Source of the DNA: Spirogloea muscicola
Lineage: Eukaryota > Streptophyta > Zygnematophyceae > Spirogloeales > Spirogloeaceae
DNA: 64,000 nucleotides
Direction: 5' to 3'
Assembly (NCBI GenBank): GCA_009602725.1
Contig: WELB01000134.1
Coordinates: 70,287-134,286 of the forward strand
The notes under the pieces are model-generated. The model ran no database searches and had not been told where the DNA came from. It saw only the letters and a list, made by a program, of their open reading frames with translations. Of this stretch, positions 21,904-64,000 are shown piece after piece (within the stretch, counting starts at the first letter, position 1; each line of letters opens with the position of its first letter). The position numbers and the translations under genes were made by a program.

Positions 21904-22233
21904 GTGCCCCTCGTGGGCGTGCCCCTCGTGGGCGTGCCCCTCGTGGGCGTGCCCCTCGTGGGCGTGCCCCTCGTGGGCGTGCCCCTCGTGGGCGTGCCCC
22001 TCGTGGGCGTGCCCCTCGTGGGCGTGCCCCTCGTGGGCGTGCCCCTCGTGGGCGTGCCCCTCGTGGGCGTGCCCCTCGTGGGCGTGCCCCTCGTGGGCGT
22101 GCCCCTCGTGGGCGTGCCCCTCGTGGGCGTGCCCCTCGTGGGCGTGCCCCTCGTGGGCGTGCCCCTCGTGGGCGTGCCCCTCGTGGGCGTGCCCCTCGTG
22201 GGCGTGCCCCTCGTGGGCGTGCCCCTCGTGGGC
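21904..22233 (-). repeat. 22 perfect copies of a 15-bp unit inside gag
   Basis: The unit GTGCCCCTCGTGGGC is repeated 22 times with no difference that I can see. On the minus strand it encodes HEGHA repeats at about residues 49-158 of the gag-protease frame. The unit length is a multiple of three, so copy-number change does not shift the frame. The related gag at 49.2-49.8 kb has a single degenerate unit (PEGHAKLGA), so the array is a recent expansion. A His-rich repeat could bind metal, but that is speculation. Confidence 0.9.
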
Positions 22234-22490
22234 GTGCTCCGCAGCAGCCACTGCCGCAGCAGCTGGCCCTGCAGCAGCCGCTGCCTCAGCAGCCGACCGC
22301 TCTGCCTCCCGAGGAGGGCTCGGCCGCGCACTGGAGGTGTGCGATACCATGCTGGCTGAAGGACACTGAGTGATCAATTCAGGCTCCGACAGTCAGCAAA
22401 TCACACACTCCATACCGCAATACAGGACATCGCAAGACTGGTGCACCAGCGAGCGAGCAAGCAAGGCAGCGCGCAACTTCACACCTCAAT

Positions 22491-40600: not shown

Positions 40601-43600
40601 GATGCAGCCTTACTGGTCCCTTACCACCGGAGATAGGGAACTGCGCCAGTCTCAGCTATCTCTATGTCAGCGACAACTTGTAGGCTCCAAGTTGCTTTGG
40701 CCCAGATGTCAGCCACGTAGACCTTCTTTGCTGTCCATATATGCAACAGCTCCCAGTCTAGATGGAGCTGACCGCTATTTGTGCACAAAAGAGCCTGATT
40801 GCTGGCCACATTGGCTTTACAACTTCCAAAGAGTCGTATTGCAATTGCAAGTCCATGCAATCCTGCTGAAGTTTGCATCTTAAAGGACAAGCCTTCCAAC
40901 GCAGTGCAGATTAAGCGGAGAGTTCCCCGCTTCGTTGGCGAGATTGTCCCTCTTACAGGTCCTTGTCATTTCGAATAATCGGTAAGTGACCATGTACAAA
41001 TGTGGCAAGCTAAGTACTCATGGTCGTCTGCCAAAACACAGAGAAGTCAAAGTTTAGGCCAACCAATCGTGAAGACCCCTGATGTCGTCTCTCCTCGCTG
41101 CCGCCATGCAGTATATCTGGAAGCCTGCCCGCCGAGCTTGGGAAGAGTGGAACTTTCATTGATCTTATCCTCTCCAACAACAAGTACTCTCAATACTGCA
41201 CTTCTTTCCAAACTAGTGTGACGGTGTGGCTGGCCACAGCAGTATGTCTGACGTTTTCATCGAGACTGCTCCTGTGCATATTGAGGTCTGCTTGATGCAT
41301 GAATGCATGTTGAGTAACTTGATCTGACACAGACCTGAACAGGCTGACAGGCTCCCTGCCACCAGCAGTCGGCAATTGTCGGAATCTGACAATCCTTGAG
41401 CTTAATGATAATCAGTGCGCAGTCCTGCACCTCTGCTCTTCTACTTTATGTCACATATGCTGCACAATAGACATAATCATTCACTGTCATACCTGCACTC
41501 GTAGAAATGTGTCAGCATAGTGGGGCTCTGCTACAGTGTTGTATTGATACTGCATGTGTTCAGGCGTTTGACTAAAAAAATCATGAGACAGACACATTGC
41601 ATTTCAATGTCTGATTCTGATAGTACAAGTCACAAACAGTGGGGCTCTGCTGAAGTATTATAATGCATGTCACATTCTTCGTGCTTGTGGGACCTGTGAG
41701 AATGCTGCTCACAGTCTCTCATGCCATTTCCACAGACTCAGTGGGCCCATCCCTCCATCATATGGCAACTTGGCTGATTTGTCAAGCCTCTTGCTGTACT
41801 CCAACAAGTGCGTTTTTCCCCCTTACTGTTGACTAAAGTTTTGCATTGATGAATCTTAATCTTGACAATTTCCATGCTACCTTCCTTGAAGTCAGGATAC
41901 AAATCGTCATAGTCAGCTGCCACGGCATTGTTTTATAGAGCCCTTCCTACTGTACGAATCACAGATTATCGGGCAGCATACCGAAGCAGCTAAGCAAGTG
42001 CCAAAAGCTCCGGTACCTGGACCTGAGCTTCAATTTGTAAGGGGTTTCTTGCCGCCCATGTCAACTGCTTGGGTGACTATCCAGTTTCTCAAGGAGGTAT
42101 GTGTACGTGGCTCCAGTCTCCACTCTCGGTGTAGCTTCCAATATTTTATTTGTCGACAGTATGTCCAACACCAACCTATATAGCTCATAAGGTGGCACTC
42201 TGCATATTGAACATAGCAGGCTTGTTGGAGGGGTACCGCAAGAGCTCGGAGAGCTGCCTAATCTCCTCGGCTTTTAGGCAAGCAACAACAGGTGACAGAA
42301 GCATGAAGTCCGAGAGTCGGCAGCCGATCAGAGCATGTGAATGTAGATATTTGTGATCGCAATTAACCCGAGCAGTGCATTGAGTGTTTATCTAGGTCAC
42401 AACAACATGAGCGGAGGAGTACCTGCGAGCATTCGAAGTCTACAGAACGTTCAAGTTCTTGACATCTCCAAGAACCGCCTTAATGGCAGTCTCCCACCAG
42501 AAATTGGAGAATTGAGCCAGCTCATCACATTTTCGGCTGCAAGCAACTCATTCAGCGGGCCATTACCGGAGCGTATCGGCAACTTGCCGCGTCTTACCTA
42601 TCTCGATCTTTCCAACAATAATCTCAATGGCAGCATCCCGGCGTCCTTTGCTAATTTGAGTCTTACTCGATTCTTTAACATCTCAAATAACAACCTCAGT
42701 GGGCCCATTCCTGGCGGTTCCATCGGTCAGTACAGCAGCAGCTCCTTCTCTGGCAATGGCGCCTTGTGTGGCGGCCCTTACGTGGCCTGCAAGACAGCTC
42801 CCCCAACTCATCCTCCTCCCCCACTACCTCCAGTGCACAAGCCATCGAACTTATCAGGGGGTGCAATTGCCGGCATTGTTGTTGGGGCTGTTGTTGTCCT
42901 CCTCCTCCTGTTGCTGGGACTTCTCCTGCTGTGTTGCTTAGCTCCAAAGAAGGACAAAAATATGACAGACAAAGAGCGAAGCATTGAGGACTTCTGCTCC
43001 AAGTTGTCCATCACTCGGGATAGACTCCAAGCTCCCTTCACCTACGAGGAGCTCATGGTTGCAACTGATGACTTCAACGACAATCATATTATTGGCACAG
43101 GGGGCTTTGGGAGAGTCTACGGGTACGTACACTGCCCTGCTTGCAAGCCTTGTGCTAATTTTGGTGCTTGGTGTCCCGGTCAAATATTGTCCTATAACTC
43201 TTATCCTAAGGCACAATCACTCATCCATAACGATGCAAAATGCTGTGCAGTGCGCAGATGAAGGATGGGCAAAAGTATGCAGTGAAGAGGCTAGCGCCAG
43301 ACAGCAAGCAAGGTCTGAGAGAGGTGCAGGCTGAGGTGGAGATATTGAGTCGCATTCGTCACCGCAATCTGGTCCCGCTACGGGGCTGGTACATCCCTAA
43401 GGACAGCGATGTGGACATGCTGCTCATCTATCCATTCTTGCCTGGCGGGACTCTTGACCAACTGGTGCACGGGGGGAAGGCCGTGCCTCCAAAGCCAGAA
43501 GGGTATGATCACTGGGCTGCACGTAAGAAGGTCATATTGGGTGCAGCAGTTGGGCTTAAGTACCTGCATCACAAGTATGAACCTCGGGTGCTGCATAGTG

Positions 43601-44294
43601 ACGTCAAGCCAAGCAACACCTTGTTGGATGAACATGGTCAAGGGTACATGGCGGATTTTGGGCTTGCACGGACCTTTCAGGCACTTGACTCGCACGTGTC
43701 AACCATAGCTGCAGGTACTTTCTTCGAGCACTTCAATGGCATCTGTGCTTTGTCATTGGCTTCTTTGGCAAGAAGGACGAACTTCTCCCTGCAATTACTT
43801 GTACATGCGGTGGTTGTGGCACCTCAGACTAACAGCCTCGTACAGAGAGCAGTCAGGTCTCCTGCAAATCATGAACGCAACACCATGACTGCTGCATATC
43901 CGCAGGCACAGTTGGATATTGGGCTCCAGATTGCGCTCTGGGCCAATTGACTGAGCGGAGCGATGTCTTCAGTTTTGGAGTCATGATTCTGGAGACCGTC
44001 ACCGGGAAGCGACCTGTTGACCCTTTCTTTCAAACTGAAACAGTAATTGGGGGTAACTTGATCAGTTGGGTGCGATCATGCCTTCGCAATGAGAAGCCTT
44101 TGGAGTGCATCGATGTGGCTCTAGCTCCATTTGTTCCCCAGAACGTGGACGAGATGAAGGGAGCCTTAAAAGCAGGGCTATTTTGCTGCTCCAATACTCC
44201 AAATCAAAGGCCACCAATGAATGACGTTGTAGAAATGCTCCAGAATCTCCAAGCATTTGGTGCAGGTTTGACATTTCCTAAAGTGCTGAGTTGA
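34604..44294 (+). CDS. LRR receptor-like serine/threonine kinase, copy D
   Basis: This is the fullest gene of the window. It comprises an LRRNT domain, about 27 LRR exons, one large exon with more LRRs plus transmembrane helix and P-loop, and two kinase exons ending in TGA at 44292-44294. Such proteins sit in the plasma membrane, sense ligands outside and phosphorylate partners inside; the ligand here is unknown. The start is uncertain: ATG 34604 opens the frame that contains SDKAALLAF, but an acceptor-like CTCGCAG at 34662-34668 suggests an upstream first exon. Blemishes are a frame change in the LRRNT, a poor donor after the exon at 35990 and an in-frame TAG at 42275-42277. It may be a live gene that skips bad exons or a recent pseudogene. 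Confidence 0.65.
34669..34860 (+). other. Copy D: LRRNT-type N-terminal domain
   Basis: SDKAALLAFKAVITNDPYG is in the frame opened at 34604, and CGWFGIECNATIQ follows in another frame. Together these are the hallmarks of the plant LRR N-terminal cap (LRRNT_2). The frame change lies between about 34715 and 34740 and could be a real lesion or an assembly error. The donor joining this exon to 35081 could not be placed. Confidence 0.65.
39188..39630 (+). repeat. 221-bp tandem duplication carrying one LRR exon
   Basis: The exon 39217-39288 with its flanking intron is repeated at 39438-39509 at a spacing of 221 bp. Intron matches extend on both sides (GCTTGGTGACATCAACAG before, CAGCATAC...GGTGCACAA after). 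The duplication adds exactly one LRR to the receptor. Confidence 0.85.
39995..40065 (+). mobile_element. LINE tail inside an intron of copy D
   Basis: CCTTGTACATTCCTCTGGG, a GGCTGGCC...GGCC-like stem and ATTGAAAGGGCTC resemble a diverged LINE 3' end, lying between the exons at 39871 and 40131 in the sense direction. It does not touch either splice site. Confidence 0.5.
42376..43122 (+). other. Copy D: terminal LRRs, transmembrane helix, P-loop exon
   Basis: This 747-nt exon stays in frame from the acceptor CCCGAGCAG to the donor GG|GTACGT. It encodes about six LRRs (NNMSGGVP, NRLNGSLP, NSFSGPLP, NNLNGSIP, NNLSGPIP), a proline-rich linker, a helix (IVVGAVVVLLLLLLGLLLL), a basic stop-transfer, FTYEELMVATDDF and the glycine loop GTGGFGRVYG. 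Compared with copies A and E it lacks the first two or so LRRs of this exon, so its acceptor seems to be a newly used one. Confidence 0.8.
43251..43714 (+). other. Copy D: kinase N-lobe and catalytic loop exon
   Basis: 464 nt, entering in phase 2 and leaving in phase 1. It contains the ATP-anchoring lysine in YAVKRL, the alpha-C region EVQAEVEIL, the hinge-side LLIYPFLPGGTLD, the catalytic loop as HSDVKPSN and the DFG triplet in ADFGLART. The catalytic loop has serine where most kinases have arginine (HRD), so this would be classed with non-RD kinases; copies A and F keep HRD. Confidence 0.85.
43906..44294 (+). other. Copy D: kinase C-lobe exon and stop
   Basis: It enters in phase 1 (AG|GTVGYWAPD), giving the activation-segment end as APD, then SDVFSFGVM, the TGKRP segment and the subdomain XI arginine in NQRPPM. 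It runs without interruption to TGA at 44292-44294. The length and motif order are those of a complete RLK kinase domain. Confidence 0.85.
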
Positions 44295-48492: not shown

Positions 48493-50216
48493 AGCAAACA
48501 GCCGGCAGGTATTACGATGTTCAGACGGATGCGGCCTCTACCAAGCCTAGGAGGATCAGCACCCTTGGCTAGGTGTTCCCAAAGAGCAGGTGGACATATT
48601 GCCAGATTGGCCGCAGGCTGCCACGTGATGTGCTCAGGCCCATAATAGAGCCACTTCAGCAGATACTCATGGGTCTTGGACGACGTTGTTCTTATCGCCG
48701 CAGCGAAAGCAACCTTCCCCCTCCATAGCTGGCTTCTCCAAGCCTCTCATGAGAACGAATGTGCAGCCCCTCCTTAGGCCGAAACTCTTTGGGTCCCCTC
48801 TCTGCCTCAGCAGATACTCCCGCCTCAAGCAGGGAGCGCTTGTCAATACACGTAGATAAGGTTCAGCACCTTCCTGGCGTGCTCCACCAGCTGGAGCAAG
48901 CTGGCAAGGGCTGCGAGGTCACGGGGTCCACACGAGCCACCTCCGCATCGGCTCGGGCACCCCAGCCTCAAAGCGCTGGCGCTGATTGACAGCCTTCATA
49001 GGCTCGTCTGCGCAGCATTGAGACCAGCAGCCTGAATTGCCGCACATGGTCCTCAAAGTCCCCGCGCAGACGAATACCATCCAGCTCATCACGAGCCTTC
49101 AGCTCCCCATGAACCTCACCATACACGTGGTGAGCGAGCCCGAGCAATACTTCCAGGTGTTGTACACCTCTAGCGTGGAAGTCTTGTTCATGGTGTCCCA
49201 CCACGGGGATCTCCGACGAGTTAAGTAGCGGCAAGCTCATCTTGCCGACACGTCCGTGCCACTCAGCACGAACCACTCAATCATCTCGCTGAGCCACGCG
49301 TGGAGTCCACCCTGGTCACATTGACTAGAGAAACGCTGAGACTGGGCGGCACTGGCAAGTCCGTGCGCAGGATTCTCCCAGCTCTGGCGCATCGGATGCG
49401 CCTCAGCCCCAACCCTTTGCAAACGCCTGTCGCCGGCCCGAAGCCGGCCGAGCAAGCTTTGCACCTCCCTACACAACGGCGCCAGAAGGGCGTAGAAGGA
49501 CGGGTCCAGCACAGCCTTGGCTGCCTTCAAGTGCTCCTTGAGGAATACAAAACGTTGCATCTCCCCAGCCGACAGGCTCTCATAGCCAGCCGACAGGCCC
49601 TCACGTCCTGCGGCCCCGAGCTTGGCGTGCCCCTCAGGCACATGCCGTGCGCAGCCACTGCTGGCTCCGCAGCAGCCGCTGCCTCAGCAGCCGGCCGCTC
49701 TACCTCCCGATGAGGGCTAGGCCGCGCACTGGAGGTGTGCGACTCCAAGCCGTCTAAGGAACACTGTGTGGTCAAGTCATGCTCCGCAATTAGCATATCT
49801 TACACTCCATACTGCAATACAGGACATCGCAAGACTGCTGCAGCAGCGAGCGAGCAAGCAAGGCAGCGCGCTAAGCCATACCTTCAAACAGCAGGCTGGC
49901 AAACAGCCGCAGATAGGCCAAGACCGATGCACAAGATCGATGCTGGCCACACGAGTAACCTTCACCACACAAAGGCTGCAAGCTTCAATCCCCACCTCAG
50001 AGTTGGCGATATGCAGCAGGTGGCCCATCACAAAGTATTACTCTGGCTAGGATTGGCGCTGGTCGCGGCTGGCTCAGTGTGCAAAGATGACGCAGCACCT
50101 GGCGCTTCCGCTGAGCAGCCTCCCGGACCAACGTCTGGCAAGACACTTTATCTCAACAGAAAAGGTCAAGCCAGCACATCAGGAAGATCCTTGCATCATC
50201 AGCAGCAAGTACGATA

Positions 50217-50231
50217 CTATATATATATATA
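50217..50231. repeat. (AT)n microsatellite
   Basis: Uninterrupted TA/AT run in the leader of the deleted element. Confidence 0.8.
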
Positions 50232-50330
50232 GCGGCAGTTGCTACAAGCATAACAGAAGCGTTTTCCACGGTATCCCAAAACCACCATCCACCCCAACCA
50301 AGTTCATGGTATGCCCACCAACTTCCCATC

Positions 50331-50355
50331 TATATATATATATATATATATATAT
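50331..50355. repeat. (TA)n microsatellite
   Basis: Uninterrupted TA run of 25 bases, about 30 bp from the primer-binding site of the deleted element. Confidence 0.85.
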
Positions 50356-50396
50356 GCATATGCCCGATGGATGCTAGACCGCCTCTGATACCAAAT

Positions 50397-50530
50397 GTAT
50401 ACAAAATGGAGTGTGTATTAGAGATGGAGGCCGTGAGTGGCCGGCCCAAAGGCATGTACAAGGTCTGAAAGGGCCGGATGGCGCAAAAAGCAGGATGCTA
50501 ATATCCAGTTCGTCAGCAAGTGGGCGCTAA
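50397..50530 (-). mobile_element. LINE tail remnant between the element and copy E
   Basis: The minus strand has CCTTGTACATGCCTTTGGGC and a shortened GGCC stem, a diverged LINE 3' end. It occupies the place where the 5' LTR of the deleted element would be expected. Confidence 0.5.
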
Positions 50531-52605
50531 TTAGCTAATAAGGATCACTTCTCTGTCGTAGTTTTGTCCTTCCGTGCTAAGCAACACAGCCGGAGCAGTG
50601 CCAGCAACAGGAGGAGAAGGACAACAACGGCCCCAACAACAATGCCGGCAATGCCCCCCCTGATAAGCTCGACGACTTGTGCTCCGGAGATAGTGGGGAA
50701 GGAGGAGGAGAACGAGGTGGGGGAGCTGTCTTGCAGGCCACGTAAGGGCCGCCACACAAGTCGCCATTGCCAGAGAAGGAGCTGCTGTTGTGGTGACCAA
50801 TAGAACCGCCAGGAATGGGCCCACTGAGGTTGTTATTTGAGATGTTAAAGAAGAGATTAAGAGTCAAATTAGCAAAGGACGCCGGGATGCTGCCATTGAG
50901 ATTGTTGTTGGAATAATCAAGATAGGTGAGACTCGGCAAGTTGCCAATACGCTCCGGTAAGGGCCCGCTGAATGAGTTGCTTGCTGCTGTAAAACTGATG
51001 AGCTTGCTCAATTCTCCAATTTCCGAGGGGAGACTGCCAGTTAGGCCGTTGTTGGAGATGTCAAGATCTCGAAGATCTTGCAGACTCCGAATGCTCGCAG
51101 GTACTCCTCCGGTCAATTTGTTGTGAGCTAGGTAGATAGCCAACGCATTGCTTAGGTTGCCAAGCCACTCGGGGACTGGGCCAGATAGATTCTTATTTTC
51201 CATCACCAGTGATTGCAAGTTCTCCAGGTTGGAGAAGGTTGTCGGGATCGGTCCAAAGAGCTTGTTGTCACCAAGCCAGAGTGCATTGAGCAGCACAAGT
51301 CTCCCCAACTGAGGTGGCACAAGGCCAGTTAATCTGCCAGTAAGTGTGAGTGAGCCGCTAAGAATGCCAGCTGTGCCTCTTCTGCAATTTATGTACCTGC
51401 TGACATGGCAAATCAGGCAACGTATAGCTGCATCGGAGATGCAGTCACAGCTCAGCAGCTGTTGAAGCTCAGGTCCACACTGATCAACCCCCTGCAATCA
51501 GCGAGCTCTGGTGGCACTCAACCCTCCAAGCTGACACCAAACAAGCATTAGACAGGCGGTGAGTTGACACCGATAGTAGTCAGCTCCCTCATGAAGTGGG
51601 AGCTTGTTGCACGAGACGACCTGCACGCAGGGACAGCAGAGCAGGCCTACATGCTCGAAACTTGTTCAGAAGGCATACTGGAGCCTACTGGTTGTGATTA
51701 ACCCAGAGAGCGCCGAGATTGGCGCAGTTTCCCAACTCCGATGTTAAGGGACCAACCAGTAAGGCTGCATGGCAACGAAGAGCTTCGATAACTGTCCACC
51801 TTCACCTTAGCTTCGTGAGCGATGACCACTTCATCTACCAGACACTCGCAACTGAGTTGTTGTCAAGCTCACTCTGTCTGAAGGACACTCCTTGCAAAGA
51901 TGCCTTGATGCACTATGCACGGCAACAGTCTGGTAGGAGTGTCTTGCTCATACTTACTTGTTGCTCCCCAACAGTAACAGTCTCAACATTCGAAGGTTGC
52001 CGATGCTTGAAGGTATGACTCCCGTTAATCTGAATGCAAGACAACCACAGGGCATTGGCATATGTGCCACTTGGTCCATGTATGAAATGCCTTGAAGTTG
52101 ATGATGGTTTCCTGATCGGCCTGATCAGCCTTGATCGTCTTATGTGCACATATAGCAGACAGCTCCCTCATGAAGTGGGAGCTTGCTGCACGAGATGACC
52201 TGCACTTAGGGACAGCAGAGCAGGCCTACCTGCTCGAAACTTGGGCAAAAGGCATTTTGGAGCCTACTGGTAATCATAGACGTTGAGATTGCTGAGACTG
52301 GCGCAGTTTCCCAACTCCAACGGTAAGGGACCAGTAAGGCTGCATCGCTACGAAGAGCTTCGATTACTGTTCACCTTCTCCTTAGCTTCGTGACTGATGA
52401 CCACTTCATCAATCAGACACACTCGCAATTGAGTTGATGTTGTCAAGCTCACTGTGTCTCCAGGACACTCCTTGCAATGATGCCTTAATGCAATACGCAC
52501 GGCAAAATTCTGCAAGGTCTTGCTCATACTTACTCATTGCTCCCCAGATTTGACGTAATCAACATTCGAAGGTTGCCAATGCTTGAAGGTATGACTCCCG
52601 TCAAT
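50531..52605 (-). pseudogene. LRR receptor-like kinase copy E (no kinase part)
   Basis: Minus-strand exons in order: 52605-52534, 52339-52268, 52029-51958, 51764-51689, 51530-51459 and the large exon from 51381 to about 50540. The large exon holds about eight LRRs, the SFSGNGDLCGGPYVAC segment, a proline-rich linker and the helix. It has one frame change near the helix, and the kinase is cut off. Exon 51530-51459 has TGA as its fourth codon and CT instead of GT at its donor, and exon 51764-51689 is 76 nt instead of 72. The copy is therefore a pseudogene, although most LRRs in the large exon are intact. Confidence 0.8.
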
Positions 52606-52760
52606 CTAAATGCACGACAACCACAGGGCATTGGCATATGTGCCACTTGGTCCATGCATAAATGGCCTTGAACTTGATGATAATGCCTTGATCAGCCTGA
52701 TCAGCCTTGATGCTCTTCTGTGCACAAATAGCAGTCAGCTCCCTCATGAAGTGGGAGCTT
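51582..52760. repeat. Tandem duplication, period about 577 bp, with two LRR exons
   Basis: CTCCCTCATGAAGTGGGAGC begins repeats at about 51585, 52165 and 52738. Exon 52534-52605 pairs with 51958-52029 (576 bp) and exon 52268-52339 with 51689-51764 (579 bp). The third unit is partial and runs into copy F. The block duplicates a pair of LRR exons in copy E. Confidence 0.8.
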
Positions 52761-52784
52761 GTTGCACGAGATGACCTGCACGTA

Positions 52785-54372
52785 GGCTGTTGTTGTCCTC
52801 TTCCATTTGTTGCTGGGACTTCTCCTGCTGTGTTGCTGTGCTCGGACGAAGGAAAAATCTATGACACACAAGGAGCGGAGCATTGAGAGCTGCTGCTCCG
52901 AGATGTCCATCACTCAGGATAGTTTCCAAGCTCCCTTCACCTACGAGGAGCTCATGGTTGCAACGAAGTTGAAGTATTGCCTTCAACGACAATCACATTG
53001 TTGGCAGAAACGGCTTCGGGAAAGTCTATGGGTACGTACATTCCCTGCTTGCAAGCGGTATGTTATTCTTGGTGCTTGTGTCCAGGTCATTTTCTTCTCC
53101 TATGGCTCTTTCAAATCCTTTGGCAACCTTTTGCTACGATGCAAAACGCTGAGCAGTGCGCAGCTGAAGGACCGGCAAAAGTATGCAGCGAAGAAGCTAG
53201 CGCCAGAAAACAGGCAAGGACTGAGATCGGTGAAAGCTGAGGTGGAGGTATTGAGTCGCATTCATCACCACAATCTGGTCCCGCTACGGGGCTGGTACAT
53301 TCCTAAGGAGAGCGACGTGGACATGCTGCTCATCCATTCATTCTTGCCAGGAGGAAATCCTGACCAATTGGTGCACAGGGGGAATGCGTGCCTTTAAAGC
53401 CAGAAGGGTTTGATCACTGGGCTGCACGTAAGAAGGCCTCGTTGGGTGCAGCAGTTGGACTCAAGTACCTGCATTACGAGTGCGAACCTCGGGTGCTGCA
53501 TAGGGACGTCAACCCAAGCAACGCCTTGTTGGATGAACATGGTCAAGGGTACGTGGCGGATTATGGGTTTGAACGAACTTTCAGGCACATGACACGCACG
53601 TGTCAACCATGGCTGCAGGTTACTTTCGATGCCCTCCAATGTCCTTTGAGCTGTATTGTAGGCCTCTTTGGCATCGTGCAAGGAGGATGTGTTGACACAT
53701 CCTGGTAAAGGCACCTCAGACTGCCTGGCAATGACTATGGCTCATCTTTCCTGCAAGTCAAGATGCGTGACGATGATGCACATGGGCAGGCACCAACGGG
53801 TACATCGGTCCAGACTGTGCCCTCGGCCAACTGACTACACACAGCACTGTCTTCAACTTTGGAGTGATGGTTTTCGAGATTGTCACTAGCAAACGGCCTG
53901 TTAACACTTTCTTTCAAATCGAAGTTGCAACTGGTGGCAACTTAATCTTGTGGGTGCGATCCTGCCTTCGCCACGAGAAGCCTTTGAAGTGTGATACTAT
54001 GGTCCTAGCTCCATTCGTCCCCCAGAAAGTGGACTTGTGATTAAGGCTAATGAGCTGCTCCGATGTTCCAAAACAAAGGCCAACAATGCTTGACGTGGTT
54101 GAGATGCTCCAGAATCTCGGAGCATTTGGTGCTGGGTTGACACTTCATTCATCAATCGTTGCCACCGAGTCAGTCAGATCTATTCACTTCGTGAACATCC
54201 CTCTCTTGGCTGGCACTATCAAATGCACGACACGAGACTTCTGGAGGTCGAGACTTGATGCTGCAAAGACGATTTCTATGTTACGACAGGCTAATGTTGG
54301 TGCAATGCCCCGTCACTCCATTTGCCCGTCTGACCGTGATGTTGCGTATGTAGCACGATGGAAAGGGTGGTA
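52785..54372 (+). pseudogene. LRR receptor-like kinase copy F (kinase part, pseudogene)
   Basis: It starts within the transmembrane helix (LLLGLLLLCC), then FTYEELMVAT and the P-loop ending at 53031. The second exon is 53157-53618 (KYAAKKLAPE, LLIHSFLPGG, HRDVNPSN, ADYGFERT) and the third starts at 53790. Defects: a frameshift before the P-loop and another near 53390, lysine replaced by asparagine in the catalytic loop, DFG changed to DYG, and a stop near 54040. LRR exons are absent because an inverted breakpoint joins it to copy E. The true end is unclear; the last frame runs to 54372. Confidence 0.8.
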
Positions 54373-54555
54373 GTGCGAGGAGAGGAAGTGGCAGAGGAGA
54401 GTCAAAGTGATTGGCGAGCTTGATCGGGAAGAAAGGCGACAGAGAATGAAGGAAATGGCGAGAGGGAGCAGGAGCAGGAGAAAGTGAGGATGAGACGGAA
54501 GGAGGAAGGTGAGAGGTGGCCAGCCTCTTAGGCTCAATTGCGGGTACTGAGCTTC
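54373..54555. other. Purine-rich spacer
   Basis: A GA-rich stretch resembles the flank after copy D near 44520-44690. No other content was recognised. Confidence 0.35.
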
Positions 54556-54710
54556 CACCTGCATCGTCTCGTGTCTAGTTGTGTTTATTTTCTATTTGGC
54601 ACCCTCTTTGGCTTTTGGATATTGTCCCTTTTTTTTTGGTGGATATTGATAATTCTTTTCGGGCTGGCTCTGGCAGCCCCTCTTCTTCATGGGCGAGCAA
54701 TTTTCTTAGG
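54556..54710 (+). mobile_element. LINE 3' UTR fragment
   Basis: GTGTCTAGTTGTG, CTTTTGGATATTGTCC, a GGCTGGCTCTGGCAGCC stem and CATGGGCGAGCAATTTTC match the 3' UTR of the LINE at 63590-63740 in order. Confidence 0.7.
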
Positions 54711-55054
54711 CTGGGCAGCGTTTTATCACCGTCCCAGTGGCACTGTGGTCAGTGGAATGCAACGGAGCTTTGCCCGTCCTGCAATAGTGTCAAAAAAAGC
54801 TACAACAGAGAAACAGCTATAATAATGTACAGACTTACAAGTACTGTCGTCACAGTGGTGAAACGGGCGAACGACCACGCACGACAATGAACAAACCGAA
54901 GACCTAAACAACGACGCACAACGGCGACGAATGCGCAACCTGGAATCCTGGCGCGCGACGGCAACAAAGGCACACCTCGAAACAACGACTTTTGTTTTAG
55001 TGGTGCACTTTAGTGATTATTTATGTATTTGTGGTGGTAGGCTGATGACAACGA
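54711..55054. other. Unassigned spacer
   Basis: It contains short overlapping open frames on both strands without recognisable motifs. Confidence 0.3.
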
Positions 55055-55130
55055 GAAGCGCGGCCAGATTGACTGGTGGCTGGGAAAGGCCAGCCCAAAG
55101 GAATGGACAAGGTCTGAGGGAGCCTGAGTG
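55055..55130 (-). mobile_element. LINE 3' tail, reverse
   Basis: The minus strand carries CTTGTCCATTCCTTTGGGC and the GGCTGGCCTTTCCCAGCC hairpin. It abuts a LINE fragment in the opposite orientation, so two insertions or an inversion met here. Confidence 0.65.
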
Positions 55131-55400
55131 CGGAGCTGGCGGCCCACATGCTCCGTTGTGCCCACGGCGGCGAGAGGACCGGATCCCATGACCTTCTCAG
55201 GGATGGCATGCAGGGTGTCTTCATCTAGGCGGGCTACAAGGTGGCCGTGGAGCACTCCTCGACAATACCCCCCGTGCGCGGCGCCGATGGTCAGCTCCAC
55301 ACCCGGCGCGCAGACCTAGTCGCCATCCCGCCCGGCGGCGGTCCGCGGATGTGGTGACCGCCGACTGTGTCGACTCCGCCAATCCCTCCAAGTCGGCGGT
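55131..55400 (+). mobile_element. LINE endonuclease-region fragment
   Basis: The plus strand encodes ELAAHMLRCAHGGERT (zinc-binding CCHC end), AGYKVAVEHSS and RRADLVAIPPGGGPR, corresponding to residues about 75-146 of the LINE frame at 30331-31209. Two in-frame stops and a frame change are visible. It is dead. Confidence 0.7.
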
Positions 55401-55415
55401 GTCATGCGCGAGGGC

Positions 55416-55567
55416 GTCTATGCGAGATGGCGTCGATTGGCCGATATAGAGACAGATGCTGACGTATACGAGCTATGTGATACACAACCAAACAAGAATG
55501 CGGTTGCGCTGGCCATGCCAACAAAAAGGCAGTCCGTCGAGAGGCCATTGTCACCAATCGTTCATCT
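55416..55567. repeat. Dispersed repeat shared with 914-1065
   Basis: This is the second copy of the 150-bp block, lying between a LINE fragment and the methyltransferase-bearing element. It encodes nothing recognisable. It might be a remnant of that element's 3' end, but the copy at 914 has no such neighbour. Confidence 0.55.
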
Positions 55568-55588
55568 CATAATTCTTGTGAGGTCGCA

Positions 55589-58500
55589 TCAACTGGTTGT
55601 TTTGCCAAACATATCTTCTAGCTCTGTGCTTGATGCAATCCTTCTGGATGGTAGTAGTATTGGGTAGGTAGGTCCCAGTCTGAAGATGATGTAGAACTGG
55701 AACATCCAACCATACATCTTTTGAAAAGAACTATCATCAGGAGCATCAATAGCACAAGCCAATGGAGAATACTTGGCGAAGCGAGCCAAATAAGAAGCAG
55801 GATTGCTGGGAAGCACAGGAACAGTGGCAATAGACATCAGAGCAAAATGATCATCTACAGTTGTTGGAATGGGGTGGCGACTGAGGGCATCCGCATCCAG
55901 ATTTTGAAGCCCTGGCTTATGAATGATGTCAAAGTCGTATTCCTGCAACCGTAACGCCCAGCGAGCCAATTTACCAGTCAGATTGGTAGAGGTCATCAAC
56001 CATTTCAAAGGTTGATGATCTGTAAACAGTGTAAATCGACGACCAATTTAATAAGGCCTAAAATGTGTAATAGCCCAAACAGCTGCAAGGCATTCGCCGT
56101 CATATGCCGAGTAGTTTTGTTGAGCAGCATTGTTAGAACGACTAGCAAATGCAATGACGTAACCATGGTGTTTCTCATCCTGCTGTTTAAGTACAGCTCC
56201 CATGCCGAGTTTACTCCAATCTGTCTGCAACTGGAAGTCTTTGGCATAGCTAGGACGACGCAATACAGGAGCAGTTGTCAGTGATTTCTTCAACTGACAA
56301 AAAGCGTTTTCCTGCTCGGAACCCCAAAGCCATTGCTTGTTTTTGTGAAGTAGGTTATTCAGAGGACGAGCCAGAGAGCTAAAATGCTCAAAATACCGAT
56401 GGTAGAAGCTGGCAAGTCCTAAAAAAGATCTCAAAGATGTAAGATTCGTTGGAGCAGGAATGGATAGAATTGCCTGCACCTTACTTGTTTGAGGAGAAAG
56501 TCCATTTTCCGTGATGTTATGACCAAGGTACGAAACTTCAGGAAGCGCAAACCGGCATCTCTCAGGGTGGCACTTCAAGCCTGAAGTTTGTATCAGTTTT
56601 AGTACACAGTCAATGTGAGTCACATGTTCAGCAAACTCATGACTGAAAACCAAAACGTCATCAATGTAACATCGAGAAAACGATACCCCTTTCAGCACTT
56701 GATCCATTGCACGTTGGAACATAGAAGGAGCATTTTTCAACCCGAACGGCATTTTCACCCATTGGAACAGTTGGTCAACACCCCAGAAGGCCGTCTTGTG
56801 ACGGTCGCACGGCTCAATCTCGATTTGATTGAAACCCTGTCTCAAATCCAGAACAGAAAAGTTCTTAGCGGAACCTATATGATTTATAATTTCTTCAGGC
56901 GTCGGCATTGGATATCTATCAAGTGGCGTATTGGCATTCAAAAGACGATAGTCACCACACATACGCCGGTCTGTGTAATTTCCGTGCTCATCCTTTTTGG
57001 CTGGAAGCACAGTGGGAGCTGCAAAAGAGCTATTAGAAGGCTCAATCATACCAATTGTCAGCAATTCTTGACAACGTTTGTGTACAAAGTCATCTTCAAA
57101 AGGAGATAGAGTATACCGTCTTCAGAAGATTGGTTTGTCATTGTTGAGGTCAATCTTGAACTTGGCACCCTGAAAAGTACCCAAGTCAGTTGCTGAAAAA
57201 GCAAAACATGCAATTTTGTTCTGCAGCATTCGGATCAATTGTTGCTTTTGCCTGGCATGCAGTTTGGAACCAAGATGCCAGTCATAGGTAGCAGATAAAT
57301 TAAAAACAACAAGTGATACAAAAGGTAATTGGTACGTTTGCAGAATTGTTTCGTCTGTTTCATCGTCAGAGCCTCCAAGGAGGGGAGCGTCAAAGATACT
57401 CAGTATACGATTGTTCAAGTCCGTAAGTGGCGTAGTGCCATCCATGCAATCTATCCACCTGCAGTGAGCCTGTATGCAATGTATCACGCTAGATAGCCAG
57501 GTGATAGCATTCAAGTCAAAGGCCTGACCTATGAGGCAATTCTTGGTGACATCAGAAAAGTGAGAAGGGGTGATGTCACCGGGGTAAAAACCCATGCATT
57601 TCTCACGCTCCCGTGGTGTAGGAGCCTCATACTGGTCGGAGCCCCCCGACTTGATCAAAATCATGCCTTGCCCAACAGCTCCTCGGTTGGAAACTCGAAA
57701 AGCTGCAGACTTGTCAGTGGCCACAAAGGTTGGCAATGTGCGCTGATAATGACCAGCCTTGTTGAGTGGGTGTCCTGTAACAAACCGTGGAACCGCTGGA
57801 GTTTTCCTCCAAGCATCAAGGATCAGATCAACCCGTGTTGCATTTGGAGGGTGTTGTCCGTCTATGCAAGCCTGGAGAAGAACTGCGGGCGCCAAGTTCG
57901 TCCAGAACAGGCGGGTCCTATCGGCTAGAGAACCTACCCTAGCAGCATCGAGTGTTACACAAGGTCCCAAAATGTGGAACACCCTGCGAAAATCATACAT
58001 CGCCTGCCTCTTGTCATTGGCAGGTCCTACATTCTCTAGAATATAACCCATGTATCTTTTCTGCCTACTACGAATATGCAGCAGTATCTTGATCATGGGG
58101 AAATATAATGCAGAATTTGGATGATCAAAACCTCGACCTGATCCTGCATTGCTAAAGCCTTCACAAGGAAAGCCAGCAATGACTAGGTCAATTTCAGGAA
58201 GTTTGCTGAGATGGTCTGACGTAATGTCCCTGATGTTGCCGGGCAGTGTTGTAGCCCAGCCCTGAAAGGTTGCATCCGAAAGGAGATGCGAGTACCTCTT
58301 TTTCAGAATTTGGATATGGTGGGAAGCTGCCTCACGGGCCTCCGGATCGTTGTCAATGTATATGTAGTTGGCAATCCGGTACCGGCTGCGGAGGAGACCT
58401 GCGAGACCAGTGGCGGAGCCTGCAAATAACTCCAACACCGTAAGTCCTTCCTCAGGAATATCGAAGGGGATGACCCCTTCGTAGAAGCGTTGATCTTGGG

Positions 58501-60933
58501 CTGGGCCTGCATTGGTCCCAGGATCATATAAACTAGTTTCAAAAACTTTGGAGGACCAGGCCTCCTTCACGTGAAGGGACGCTGTACGGCTCCAGTCTGG
58601 CAGCATGGCCAGGTACTTTCGGTAGTTCTCCTCCACAAGCATACCCTCGAAATCCTCTTCAGCGAAACCATCTGTCTTTAGGCACTTGCGCAACACAGAA
58701 GGTTCAGAGTTATAATCCGAGTTATCTCCTGAAGAACCCCTCTTCTGGTGAATGACCACCGGGACCTCTCCTTTCCCTTTGCCTGTAACAGGTGGTAATA
58801 AGGGAACATGATCAGTTAAGGCTGACTCATTGGAATCTGGTATGCCAGCATGGACTTGTAGTCCAGCGTGAGACTGGTTCTTAAGGAGTAATAACACTGT
58901 GTTAGTACCAGAATTCTTCCAGTCTGGCCTATACCAAGCTTTCTCTGAGTAAAAATCCATACCAAATCCTAGCGGAACTAGGAATTTGGTTCCTAACAAA
59001 ACATCGTAAGTGTCTGCTTTTGTGATCATACAAATAACAGACAATGATGTCTTCTTCGAAGGTATATTAGCATATAGGGTAATGCAAGGGGGTTTCCTTG
59101 TTAACCCTATGATACTATCAGTCCCACCAGCTGCAGTCTTGATTTTCAAGTTGCTGCGAACAATATCTCCAGCCTGCAGGTGCAATTTACCAATCATGCT
59201 GCGACCCAGGAGTACTGGCTGGGCACCTGTGTCAATGAGTACAGAAGGTGGTGCAGTACCTTTCACGGTCAGAATGCCTTCGGCATTGTCGAGGAAAGTA
59301 GCTGACGAGAATTTCTTCTGCCTCTCTTCTGCTGATCTGCATGGAAGAGAACCAGGACCAGATAGATCTGGGTTCGCTTTAGCAGAATTCATGGTCGGAA
59401 CAGCTGCAACTTGAACCGTAGGAGAGTTGTCAGTACCAGAGCTATTCAGTAGTGTAGCACACAATCTCTCCTTTGTCCAACCTAGCTCATGTAAGCTGAA
59501 CACCGGTGTTCTATGCAGCTTAGTCAGAAGAACGTCCTTGGACAACTGGCAATTGGTAGGAGCCACATCATCTGAAGCTATTCGGGCTTTAGGCAGACGA
59601 GGCTCATTGGTCAGTGTAACGTCCTTGACTTTAAAACTTGCAGCGTAACGTGCATTCCCTGCACGTGCTGCCTTTTGCAAGTTAGTTTCGCCCCTTTTGA
59701 GGGGATTCCTGCTGACAACAGTTGGTTCAGGGGCAGTGGCAGCAATAACAGCAAGGTGTGAGTAATCATACTCGTTTGCTGTCCCATCGAGGTCTTCTTC
59801 AACATCGTCGTGGTTCGCTTGAGCAACTGCAGCTGCAGCCAACTTGGCTCGAGTTTTAGCCTCGGCCTCATAAATAGCCAAATTCTGTGTCAGCCGTGCA
59901 ACATCCTGTTCCAGTCTATTCATATTAGATTGGTCAGTATGAACGGCGTGATCTTTAGAAGGACCCTGGCCACTCCCGTCCTTAGCTCGAAACTGAGCTG
60001 GAAGTTTCTCTGGATTCGTTTTCCAACATTGTGTATCACTATGACCCAACCTTCCACAAAAACCACATGTGGCACCAGCAGTCTGGTGTAATGCAGCACA
60101 GTTCCTTTTTATATGACCAGGCTTACCACAATTGTGGCAAGTGATAGAAGGACGCTGTTGATACTGCTTAGAGGCTTGAGTCATTGTGTGAGACATATCA
60201 GGTAGAGCCACATGAGCTCTGGTGTTACCTGATAGAGATTTCTTAACGACAGTGTCTTTCTCGTCCCTCCTGTCCTTGTCAGAAGTTGACGAACCTGAGA
60301 AACGATCATCAAGATTTTTAAGTGCGAAGTCGGCAGACTCCTTCTCAAGCATGACCTGGAAAACATCGGCCAGGTCAAAATGAGGCTTGTGGAGTTGCCG
60401 CGTCTGCATCAACAGTAAGTTCAGAACATGGTGCATGGCTTTCCCAGACACAACCCGAAGGAACTGATTTGCTAAGTCTTGCGAACTGATGCTTGTCCGC
60501 GACTTCTCTATAAGAGTGGTGTACCGATGATAGCATGCGGTCACCGTTTCACCTTCAAGACGTCTGAACTTATATAACTCTTGTTAGCAATGCATGACAT
60601 TCTCCGGAAATTGTTTAGACATGCGTTTGATCATCTCTTCGACAGGATCCTCAATCAAACTAGGACCTGCCGCGATCTCTGCTGACGTAGCCGTCAAGGA
60701 TAGAGGTGTTCTAAGGTCTAACACTTCTTGTTTAGTCCTTCTGTACACAGCTCCGGCAGCACCAGTAAATTATTTGGCAAACAAGGTCATTCTCTGACCT
60801 CGACCAACCACGAAACCCTGTACGTCTAACTCACAGAGTTCTGCCACGAAATGGTCTCTGACTTCTTCCAAAGAAGACCCGTCAGGCATGCCCGAGAATC
60901 TCGGACGATCACCTGAAGCCATGTGTGTACGTC
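55589..60933 (-). mobile_element. Ty3/gypsy element encoding a cytosine-C5 DNA methyltransferase
   Basis: Parts on the minus strand: gag with two CCHC knuckles (about 60139-60026), protease with LIDTGAQ (about 59257-58910), a cytosine-C5 methyltransferase domain (about 58447-57470), RT with CYIDDVLVFS (about 57130-56400) and RNase H (about 56390-55870). Gag, protease and methyltransferase share one 1140-residue frame (60544-57122). The integrase and both LTRs are not seen: the left end is truncated near 55.59 kb and the right end runs into the assembly gap. It has few breaks, perhaps two or three in the visible part, so it looks fairly young. Methyltransferase-bearing Ty3/gypsy elements are, to my memory, known from Klebsormidium. 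Confidence 0.85.
57470..58447 (-). other. Cytosine-C5 DNA methyltransferase domain inside the element
   Basis: At about residues 700-1025 of the frame: motif I VLELFAGSATG (SAM binding), motif IV GFPCEGFS with the nucleophilic cysteine at residue 794, motif VI ENV at 837-839, motif VIII ADRTRLF with R876 and R878, a variable target-recognition stretch, then REREKCMGFYPGD and the motif X-like LIGQAFDLNAITWL. The motifs run in the canonical order I to X, not permuted as in plant DRM enzymes. The enzyme family transfers methyl from SAM to cytosine C5. All core motifs are visible, so the domain may be catalytically competent; target and activity are unknown. Confidence 0.9.
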
Positions 60934-61438
60934 NNNNNNNNNNNNNNNNNNNNNNNNNNNNNNNNNNNNNNNNNNNNNNNNNNNNNNNNNNNNNNNNNNN
61001 NNNNNNNNNNNNNNNNNNNNNNNNNNNNNNNNNNNNNNNNNNNNNNNNNNNNNNNNNNNNNNNNNNNNNNNNNNNNNNNNNNNNNNNNNNNNNNNNNNNN
61101 NNNNNNNNNNNNNNNNNNNNNNNNNNNNNNNNNNNNNNNNNNNNNNNNNNNNNNNNNNNNNNNNNNNNNNNNNNNNNNNNNNNNNNNNNNNNNNNNNNNN
61201 NNNNNNNNNNNNNNNNNNNNNNNNNNNNNNNNNNNNNNNNNNNNNNNNNNNNNNNNNNNNNNNNNNNNNNNNNNNNNNNNNNNNNNNNNNNNNNNNNNNN
61301 NNNNNNNNNNNNNNNNNNNNNNNNNNNNNNNNNNNNNNNNNNNNNNNNNNNNNNNNNNNNNNNNNNNNNNNNNNNNNNNNNNNNNNNNNNNNNNNNNNNN
61401 NNNNNNNNNNNNNNNNNNNNNNNNNNNNNNNNNNNNNN
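60934..61438. other. Assembly gap (505 N)
   Basis: Undetermined bases. The gap separates the gag end of the methyltransferase element from a LINE 3' end, so the 5' LTR of that element may be hidden here. The real length is unknown. Confidence 0.99.
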
Positions 61439-61709
61439 GCCTGGCCGTCTCGCTGCAGAGGTCCATGGCCCGGGCGCTGCACCTTCGTGCCGGCAGAGCC
61501 CTCGCTGCTGCCTCTGGCTCTGGCCAGGGGACCCACTTCCAGGAGCCCAGCATCTCTGATCTGCGGCTGCTTAGCAGGGGTTACTGAGTGTCTCGTAGCA
61601 GCTTTGTTTCTGTTACTTAGCGCTTCCCCTGGCCCCCTTCTCGTACTCTGTTCATTCTTTTTCGGGCTGGTTGCTCCAGCCCCTATTCTCAATGGGCGAG
61701 CACTTTCTT
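61439..61709 (+). mobile_element. LINE C-terminus and 3' UTR
   Basis: The plus strand starts in the ORF end (LAVSLQRSMARALHLRAGRA, then SISDLRLLSRGY and stop at about 61585-61587). The 3' UTR continues with GGGCTGGTTGCTCCAGCCC and ends at GGGCGAGCACTTTC at about 61709. This is the best-preserved 3' end of the family; the 156-bp insertion at 8167-8322 matches it closely. Confidence 0.85.
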
Positions 61710-62708
61710 CAAGCCGAGCAGTCCGCTCGGCAAGCTTCACCCTCCTGCCCACGCCTGCGCCACCCGCACCGGTGTCCGCGCCTGCGCCCAGAGAGCGTAG
61801 CGCGTAGAGCATACGGCAGACGGCCCCGCGCCTGCATCCACGCCTGCACTCAGAGAGCGTAGCGCGTAGAGCATACCGCAGGCGGCAGCTAGTGTAACTT
61901 AGCCTGGACCCGCGTACGACTGCGTGAAGTCTCCGTGACACTGCGGTAAGCAGTTGCTAATCTTGCCATATCTTTATATGAGGCAAGGTGCTGCACTTGG
62001 TGCCTGCGCGTATATCCTTGCATGCTTGCATTGGTGCATTGGGTCACAAAAGCCGCGGTTCGGACTATTTGTTACAAAAGTCGCGGTTCGGACTATTTGT
62101 TACAAAAGTAGCGGTTCGGACTATTTGTTACAAAAGTCGCGGTTCGGACTATTAGTTACAAAAGTCGCGGTTCGGACTATTTGTCACAAAAGCCGAGCCC
62201 GCTCGGCAAGCGAAGCGGTACAGAACGAACTCGGTCTTGCAACTCGGGCTCGGCTTTTGTGACAGATAGTCCGAACCGCGACTTTTGTAACTAATAGTCC
62301 GAACCGCGACTTTTGTAACAAATAGTCCGAACCGCGACTTTTGTAACAAATAGTCCGAACCGCGGCTTTTGTGACCCAATGCACCAATGCAAGCATGCAA
62401 GGATATACGCGCAGGCACCAAGTGCAGCACCTTGCCTCAATATAAAGATATGGCAAGATTAGCAACTGCTTACCGCAGTGTCACGGAGACTTCACGCAGT
62501 CGTACGCGGGTCCAGGCTAAGGTACACTAGCTGCCATCTGCCGTATGCTCTACGCGCTACGCTCTCGAGTGCAGGCGTGGACGCAGGCGCGGGGCCGTCT
62601 GCCGTATGCTCTACGCGCTACGCTCTCTGGGCGCAGGCGCGGACACCGGTGCGGGTGGCGCAGGCGTGGGCAGGAGGGTGAAGCTTGCCGAGCGGACTGC
62701 TCGGCTTG
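61710..62708. repeat. 1-kb inverted repeat (palindrome) with 28-bp tandem units
   Basis: The left arm 61710-62200 and right arm 62246-62708 are near-perfect reverse complements around a 45-bp centre (62201-62245). The left arm carries five 28-bp units (GCGGTTCGGACTATTTGTTA phase starts at 62055, 62083, 62111, 62139, 62167) and the right arm four, which accounts for the 28-bp length difference. The right arm continues as the 1-kb repeat to 63190. The left arm abuts a LINE 3' end. The high arm identity implies recent origin or gene conversion. Confidence 0.9.
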
Positions 62709-63190
62709 GGGTGCCCGCTTGGGCTCGGGACGGGCGCTGCGGCGGCCGCTGGCCCTGGCCGGCAGGGCATCGTGAAGATCCGAACGCTGCCTAATAGGCC
62801 AGGTTTGGCTGTGGCGACGCTGGTTGGCTAAGTTGGGTGACGGGCTTGGTGTGGGCCAACCACATGACCCATGGGCAATCAGCCCCCGGGTGGTGACCTC
62901 CAGCCGTCCGTTCCACAATCGGATGGTGGTCGTCGCGCGTGGGCTCGGGCCCTTGCCGTCGCGTTGTCGTTGTCGTTCCGCCCATGTTGTTGTCGTCGCT
63001 CCGTCGCGTTGGTGTCGCGTTGTCGTTGGGGTTGAGTTGGTTGAGCGGTTGCCTTGATTTCCGGCTGGAAGAGGTTTTCCATCCCCGACTCCGTTTCACA
63101 TCTGGAACGCGTGACTCAGCCGTAGGACGCGTGTCAAGCCAGGTCAACTGTCCTAGTCAGATCGACACAAATAAGCAGTCGACGGGATAT
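62201..63190 (+). repeat. Younger full copy of the about 1-kb repeat (see 1290-2390)
   Basis: It begins GCTCGGCAAGCG at the centre of the palindrome. It passes through two TGCCGTATGCTCTACGCGC blocks and a GC-rich middle, and ends with GACTCAGCCG...CAGATCGACACAAATA and CGACGGGATATCGCACGAC. It encodes nothing recognisable. It directly precedes a LINE ORF end, as the copy tail at 32900-33150 also sits among LINE tails, so a link with that LINE is possible. Confidence 0.7.
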
Positions 63191-63740
63191 CGCACGACAG
63201 CGGCGACCGCTGCGCATGCGGTCGCTTTGGCGGCCCGGGGCAAGGAGCGGAAGTATGCAGATCAACCCCCAGGCGATGAGTTCGCGGCCCTTGCCATAGA
63301 CGTCCACGGGGCTTATGGCAGCGGCTGGCTGGATCTTCTCCAGCGGCTTGCCCGGCAGGCCATGGAGCGGCGGCCGGATCCGCCAGGGGGCTGCCCGGCT
63401 TCAACGCGGCCGGCTCCCTGGCCCAGGTCTTCCGGATGCGGCTCTCCGTGTCCCTTCAACGCTCCCTCGCTCATGCCGTCCACTCGCGCGCGGGCCGTGC
63501 TCTTGTTGCTTCTTCCGGGTCTCGTCTGCCTGCATCTTTTCCAGCTTCGAGCTACTCTGACCTGATGTTGCTCACACGCGGGTATTGAGCTTCCTGTGGT
63601 TTTGTCATGTCTAGTTGTCTAGCTGCCTAGCTGTGTGTTTCCCTTCTTTTCGGCACCTGTTGTAGCTCTTTGGACTTTGTCCATTCTTTTTTGGCTGGCT
63701 TCTGCCAGTCCCTCTCTTCTATGGGCGAGCTCATTCTTCT
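63191..63740 (+). mobile_element. LINE C-terminus and 3' UTR
   Basis: The plus strand shows GKERKYADQPPGDEFAALAI, DVHGAYGSGWLDLLQRLAR, then after a frame change AGSLAQVFRMRLSVSLQRS and SDLMLLTRGY with a stop at about 63587. The 3' UTR follows to CTATGGGCGAGCTC near 63735, with a weak GGCTGGCTTCTGCCAGTCC hairpin. The N-terminal ORF, RT and most of the endonuclease are missing. Confidence 0.8.
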
Positions 63741-64000
63741 GAACGACTAGGACTTAGACATCAGCCAGGGAACGCTCAGATGACAGGAGTCTGGGGTTTT
63801 TCTCACTGGGTGCTCCAGATCTTCTTTATGAAGACCAGTTTCCACGGGATCGGCGGCGGCTTAAGCGGCGGAGGTGGCGGCTACGGGTGGATCTCTGTGA
63901 GGGGGAACTGTGGCATGTGGCCTGACGCTCTTTCGTCACCTGAGGCCGCCGGAGGCCGGGCTCTGATATGAGAAAGGGGGCTGGAATTATAGCTGCGCGC
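63741..64000. other. Window end: short LINE-related segment and unassigned DNA
   Basis: 63741-63780 (GACTAGGACTTAGACATCAGCC and on) matches 45955-45995, part of the reverse LINE region there. The rest is GGC-rich with an open frame to the window end but no recognised motif. Confidence 0.4.

Follow-up and report, generated by a model that had tools for sequence, protein, structure and literature searches.

A 64,000-nucleotide stretch of the Spirogloea muscicola genome (contig WELB01000134.1, positions 70,287 to 134,286; in the following, the window) contains an insertion on the minus strand that is probably a defunct Ty3/gypsy-type retroelement copy with a captured DNA methyltransferase (DNMT) of the Dnmt3 class, the kind known as KnitGypsy-Dnmt3. 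The coding-competent form of the element appears to have the order gag, two CCHC zinc knuckles, protease and DNMT, then a UAG or UGA stop with the hexamer CARYYA, then reverse transcriptase (RT), RNase H, integrase and a PHD finger. This arrangement suggests a leaky stop, a DNMT supplied at the level of Gag, methylation of the complementary DNA (cDNA) and targeting by the PHD finger. The probability of this joint reading is put at about 0.7.

In the window copy, an open frame of 1153 amino acids from stop to stop covers 57122-60583 on the minus strand. Its Pfam matches were PF00145 (5.3e-13, residues 782-873 only), zf-CCHC (2.6e-5) and gag-asp_proteas (6e-4, below the curated cut-off). RT and RNase H are located downstream on the same strand. 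The DNMT domain aligns end to end with those of other copies and has the motifs ELFAGSATG, GFPCEGFS, ENV, DAARVGSLADRTRLFW, PTPREREKCMGF and IGQAFDLN, which we take to be the C5-methyltransferase motifs numbered I, IV, VI, VIII and X. A preliminary description of this DNA had proposed a Ty3/gypsy-type element carrying a C5-methyltransferase, and the significant profile match, the complete motif set, zinc knuckles and retropepsin in one frame and RT/RNase H on the same strand bear this out. The element is present at 55589-60933, where it had been placed; the insertion is larger and extends from 63199 to 55400 between CCGC duplications. The preliminary description did not mention the Dnmt3 class, the junction of stop and CARYYA, the PHD finger, the missing terminal repeats or the defunct state of this copy. 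The coding region of the window copy has the following features:

60934-61438: run of N over the start of gag (the sequence reads N)
60023-60142, minus strand: two gag CCHC zinc knuckles (zf-CCHC at residues 148-162; second knuckle read from the sequence)
58979-59266, minus strand: retropepsin-like protease with LIDTGAQ (PF13975, 6e-4, below the curated cut-off)
57452-58450, minus strand: Dnmt3-like C5-methyltransferase domain of 333 amino acids (Pfam, alignment, profile and predicted fold)
57326-57334, minus strand: junction of open reading frames (ORFs) 1 and 2, TAC CAA TTA in this copy (TAG or TGA, then mostly CARYYA, in relatives)
57122-57124, minus strand: in-frame TGA before the RT core (frame reading)
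56513-56974, minus strand: RT core (RVT_1, Pfam 2.7e-26)
55937-56326, minus strand: RNase H with an in-frame stop inside at 56048-56050 (Pfam and frame reading)
55569-55740, minus strand: frameshifted remnant preceding the integrase (frameshift place approximate, read from translations)

The single frame is unusually long because the sense codon TAC (57332-57334) replaces the junction stop. The run of N hides the start of gag. Integrase and PHD finger are deleted, though relatives have both: about 1.38 kb, comprising these two domains in the C330 copy (95% identity to the window copy over 2671 bp), is absent at 55568/55569. In-frame stops at 57122-57124 and 56048-56050 cut the RT/RNase H frame. 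Judged by the Pol stops, the deletion and a foreign repeat inside, the window copy is defunct.

The C2 copy is nearly intact. Its ORF1 (1411 amino acids) comprises gag, knuckles, protease and DNMT, and the same-frame ORF2 (1037 amino acids) matched RVT_1, RT_RNaseH, Integrase_H2C2, rve and PHD (PF00628, 1e-9) in Pfam. ORF2 thereby has the Pol order RT-RNase H-integrase with a DDE integrase. Gag and protease share one frame with the DNMT in C2 and C38. A protein search with C2 ORF1 as query gave no match. The family is named Ty3/gypsy-type by coding content only, because two direct long terminal repeats (LTRs) were not found on the window, C2 or C330 insertions. An assignment to the tyrosine-recombinase DIRS elements was rejected: C2 ORF2 has a DDE integrase and no PF00589 in Pfam.

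Retroelements with a DNMT are known from dinoflagellates and Klebsormidium nitens, with purifying selection and, on the gypsy element, DIRS-like repeats (de Mendoza et al. 2018, PMC5890265), which agrees with prior reports named in the preliminary description. The report is mentioned again in a passage of PMC12344493; a literature search found no further papers under the names of these elements. KnitGypsy-Dnmt3 resembles the present family in gypsy-type domains with a Dnmt3-related DNMT, the lack of introns and purifying selection (Ka/Ks < 0.2 in K. nitens). Its DIRS-like A-coding-B-A-B repeats are seen here in C328 and partly in C65; the window copy, C2 and C330 are A-coding-B. Differences are defined by the main-text description of PMC5890265 and may not all be real. 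The DNMT there lies in the Pol polyprotein ORF, whereas here it closes the gag-protease ORF before stop and CARYYA; here, the last domain of Pol is a PHD finger, and 4-bp duplications flank several single A-coding-B insertions. That the element is identical to the published one, with nothing new, has odds somewhat short of even. The domain class is the same, the leucine-rich-repeat receptor kinases read in the window fit a streptophyte-like host, and the A-coding-B-A-B order of C328 is given in the legends of PMC5890265 both for DIRS and for the K. nitens element (Fig. 1e, Fig. 4c). The Pol position of the DNMT in that paper argues against identity, as does its main text, in which neither readthrough nor PHD occurs. 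The kind of element is already known. Three features were not found described in this main text or in a literature search that did not cover PHD fingers in LTR elements or 4-bp duplications: a gag-side DNMT that precedes a conserved stop and CARYYA, a PHD finger on Pol, and units with TG...CA ends and 4-bp duplications. Part of these findings may be the published element in more detail.

The other elements in the main text of PMC5890265 are more distinct. SymbioDIRS-Dnmt3 of Symbiodinium is also a retroelement with a Dnmt3-class DNMT and a split-repeat structure, but has a tyrosine recombinase and RT and DNMT in one Pol ORF, in contrast to the DDE integrase and protease here. SymbioLINE-Dnmt likewise has DNMT and RT in separate ORFs, the DNMT first, but is a long interspersed nuclear element (LINE) with an orphan DNMT class.

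The class of the DNMT was assigned by comparison with solved structures only. A profile of ten domains matched DNMT3A best (8e-21), followed by HaeIII (3e-11), HhaI (1e-10), DRM2 (about 1e-8) and DNMT2-type enzymes (1e-5); chains named DNMT1 or CMT were not among the 57 distinct sequences at E <= 0.1. With an AlphaFold model of the domain (pLDDT 67.4, pTM 0.73), Foldseek ranked DNMT3 protein entries 1-43 and HaeIII 44th among the best 50 of 110 hits at E <= 0.001. By profile and predicted fold, the domain is Dnmt3-like and closer to Dnmt3 than to other C5-methyltransferases among solved structures.

Hosts silence transposons with this kind of enzyme, which raises the question of why a transposon should carry one. 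The conserved stop and CARYYA just past the DNMT hint at where the element needs the enzyme, i.e., with Gag and in excess. Because most ribosomes should halt after the DNMT, the enzyme would be part of the gag-protease product and be made and packaged at gag level; a minority of ribosomes would continue into Pol. The DNMT position just before the apparently leaky stop suggests bulk synthesis with the particle proteins, not sparing synthesis with the copying enzymes. Packaged DNMT would most likely methylate CG sites of freshly made cDNA, either inside the particle or during integration. With the junction known, the question can be put as testable predictions about cDNA methylation and the make-up of particles. 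The PHD finger carried by Pol probably assists in positioning the integration complex on chromatin, like the chromodomain in chromoviruses. Chromoviruses are Ty3/gypsy elements with a chromodomain integrase and share a chromatin-reader domain after the integrase with the present family. Here, a PHD finger replaces the chromodomain, which was not found in C2 ORF2 by Pfam, and a DNMT is added.

Action of the DNMT on host DNA or element RNA, or a limitation of the element's own copy number, all without marking of the cDNA, is rather unlikely. The main text of PMC5890265 considers effects on the host methylome, methylation of RNA in the case of LINE DNMTs, and slower transposition as possibilities; a DNA target near the cDNA agrees better with gag-level supply and the Dnmt3 class. 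CpG depletion was rejected as proof of methylation. It is mild, with 0.60 in the element and 0.74 in window positions 1-55000, and 5-kb stretches range from 0.41 to 0.91.

The junction between ORF1 and ORF2 was surveyed at every alignable ORF2 start in loci L009-L057, which gave 17 places after merging of same-place loci and removal of second pieces of frameshifted copies. An in-frame stop is present at 16 of the 17, the exception being the window copy with TAC CAATTA. Twelve stops are TAG (C351, C2, C330, C174, C38, C39, C65, C328, C24, C27b, C246, C341), four are TGA (C27a, C30, C48, C59) and none is TAA. CARYYA directly follows the stop in 14 of the 16 stop-bearing copies, and the other two are one letter off (C246 CAATCG, C341 CAACGA). 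ORF2 resumes in the same frame immediately past the stop. The residues flanking the junction vary widely: after the glutamine, leucine, proline or serine is encoded, constantly by a YYA codon, a form that accounts for 27% of the codons for these three amino acids in C2. CARYYA itself is found in 6 of 2447 in-frame dicodons of the C2 ORFs. The 14 hexamer junctions are not independent events because the copies are related. The best evidence for a constraint on the junction is that the hexamer persists although the stop is TAG in some clades and TGA in others, together with TAG CAATCA at the equivalent place of a distant element (L081).

Tobacco mosaic virus has CARYYA as its readthrough hexamer, and with this hexamer UGA and UAG performed about equally in mammalian reporters and both far better than UAA, according to PMC4132726. 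The present junction resembles this tobamovirus-type site in the stop and the hexamer and differs in its context, a retroelement with a DNMT as the last domain before the stop. Within LTR elements, CARYYA is not a rule, because a copia-type element of Verticillium has a leaky-stop arrangement without it, as described in PMC3441728; the LTR element Tca2 is reported to have a UGA between gag and pol (PMC2194720). A stop that is not leaky is an improbable alternative. Pol would then be made from a separate start or from spliced or subgenomic RNA, or UAG and UGA would be sense codons in the host. ORF1 and ORF2 are separate ORFs, as this alternative expects, but the direct same-frame continuation and the restriction to UAG and UGA, mostly with CARYYA, argue against it. 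Reassigned stop codons were rejected because neither C2 ORF (1411 and 1037 codons) has a further in-frame stop.

The genome of 153.1 Mb in 471 contigs was searched for relatives. The DNMT domain gave at least 122 matches in 100 clusters, and the integrase-PHD part of a relative gave at least 118 matches in 75 clusters (99 of 634 candidates scored). In 26 of the 100 DNMT clusters, an integrase cluster follows on the same strand, at most 5 kb downstream; the reverse order was found once. Pairwise distances of DNMT and RT correlate (r 0.79; Mantel 0/2000 permutations; 136 pairs from 16 copies and P0003). DNMT and RT have travelled together, since these distances agree and the two trees share their main clades. 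P0001 and P0002 have protease-DNMT frames, too. C81 as a host Dnmt3 gene was rejected, as its locus L076 reads as a worn copy.

Selection was estimated as the ratio of non-synonymous to synonymous substitutions (dN/dS) after Nei-Gojobori with a script written for this analysis; domains were left out if they had two or more stops or less than 70% coverage. For the DNMT, 9 of 78 pairs were unsaturated, with dN/dS of 0.61, 0.16, 0.07, 0.12, 0.12, 0.19, 0.28, 0.29 and 0.43; seven of these fall between 0.07 and 0.29. The protease had 14 of 45 unsaturated pairs (0.13-0.34) and RT 5 of 28 (0.07-0.42). By these ratios, constraint on the DNMT is about equal to that on the neighbouring domains. An inert DNMT, carried along by a few copies as a chance fragment of a host gene, is very improbable and was rejected: the window copy is defunct and many copies have stops, but the number of matches (at least 122), the full motif set, the low dN/dS in seven of nine pairs, the linkage to integrase in 26 clusters with congruent DNMT/RT distances and the equal domain order on a distant contig all contradict it. 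The domain is thereby not unique to the window, which had been the concern in the preliminary description.

This distant contig, CADCWO010000201.1 (L081/L086), was found by a genome-contig scan and is labelled as a metagenome-assembled genome (MAG) of Synechococcales; AVDCRST in the MAG name presumably stands for desert soil crust. A bacterial origin is unlikely, and the contig is taken as eukaryotic DNA binned with a cyanobacterium. Its translations contain gag knuckles, protease, DNMT, TAG CAATCA and RT-RNase H-integrase-PHD, with the RT identified by PF00078 and integrase and PHD by eye. The DNMT shares 34% identical amino acids with that of C2. The like order in this distant element suggests an old, maintained arrangement rather than a quirk of one genome. 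The contig end runs into the start of gag, as in a tandem or collapsed-repeat assembly. No close viral relative of the DNMT was found among 13 IMG/VR loci with 21-29% identity, one of which is a short segment at 52% (only L058 inspected). A comparison with phages gave 107 records, for which identity stayed below 60% and coverage of the query never reached 80%.

Several observations weigh against the joint reading of leaky stop, gag-level DNMT, cDNA methylation and PHD targeting. Two DNMT pairs have higher dN/dS, 0.61 (C39-C66) and 0.43, and saturation affects 69 of 78 pairs. The DNMT does not always lie on the gag side, because P0003 carries it inside Pol in the order RT-RNase H-DNMT-integrase-PHD; this DNMT is below the Pfam cut-off, yet aligns with the family domains. 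Motif IV reads EC in P0003 and C361 (L038) and PC in the other aligned domains. C24, C39, C27b and C246 are worn, and their junction stops prove little because of further in-frame stops nearby. L081 lies outside the other elements in the RT tree, unlike in the DNMT tree, and groups there with an unrelated Ty3 element of the window. No consistent RNA structure was predicted 3' of the stop, and such a structure was rejected as the recoding signal (z-scores 0.38, -0.51, -3.30 and -1.49, the last from L028, a stretch that did not begin at the stop). Confidence of the AlphaFold model is moderate. The DNMT of KnitGypsy-Dnmt3 did not methylate in yeast, a result called inconclusive by its authors in the main text of PMC5890265.

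The C-terminal stretch of P0003 resembles another methyltransferase by reading, without a profile match.

The ends of the element were defined by comparison of copies. The family termini TGTCGTGC...GCRTGACA were set by the tandem junction of C16 and the C328 copy. In all four insertions for which both ends were retrieved and could be recognised, 4-bp target-site duplications (window CCGC, C2 GGCT, C330 CAGC, C328 GTGC) lie next to TG...CA ends. In the window, the non-coding parts are:

55400-63199, minus strand: whole insertion, from 5' TGTCGTGC (63199) to 3' GCATGACA (55400), ends set by comparison with the C2, C328, C330 and C16 copies
63200-63203: target-site duplication CCGC, 5' side (identical to 55396-55399)
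55396-55399: target-site duplication CCGC, 3' side (identical to 63200-63203)
63112-63199, minus strand: start of terminal block A, portion aligning to C328, where block A has 388-395 bp
62203-62709, minus strand: part of the 5' leader, with an inverted copy at 61711-62201; both form a fold-back of about 1 kb
61439-61710, plus strand: piece of another repeat within the element, also beside other copies (L052, L071, L072)
55400-55569, minus strand: terminal block B (3' end), which comes after PHD in C330 and C2

The insertions of the window, C2 and C330 have no terminal repeats at their ends and are single A-coding-B units. An LTR pair was rejected for the window element, because no direct repeat flanks it in window positions 50000-64000. 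C328 has the split repeats A-coding-B-A-B; its two A blocks, aligned over 395 columns, differ by 8 mismatches and 7 gap positions, and its two B blocks by 3 mismatches in 208. C65 has this form in part, with B joined to A and another B 1.26 kb further; the second unit may therefore be an internally deleted tandem copy rather than a fixed repeat. Further genomic pieces resemble internally deleted units, judged by match order. In C16 (L042, L045), tandem units are joined at GACA-GC-TGTC.

A wider proposal is doubtful and clearly less probable than the joint reading. An ancient, widespread gypsy-type clade would split a Dnmt3-like writer and a PHD reader across the leaky stop, with the DNMT in excess with Gag and packaged, and the PHD finger in trace amounts on the integrase. 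The element would enter the genome already methylated and steered by histone state. Its mobile form would be a permuted A-coding-B unit without LTRs, and such units would concatenate at a GACAGCTGTC junction.

The fold-back in the leader is a palindrome of about 1 kb (window 61710-62709), with parts at 93-99% and 28-bp tandem repeats at its centre. The foreign repeat piece at 61439-61710 is probably the 3' end of a LINE, by reading and without a profile search. At window 30331-31314 on the minus strand, a frame resembles the C-terminal end of a LINE RT ORF; similar sequence seems repeated, by eye, at 61439-61710 and beside other copies. A second Ty3/gypsy element is located at window 17008-22392 on the minus strand. 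Its gag frame has a run of GHAHE repeats, and the RT frame is separate from gag-protease. Window 23074-23976, 42347-43950 and 50577-54373 look like leucine-rich-repeat receptor kinases of the plant type, and several of them seem broken. Sequence resembling window 53222-54533 adjoins the C330 copy (L057, 487-1831).

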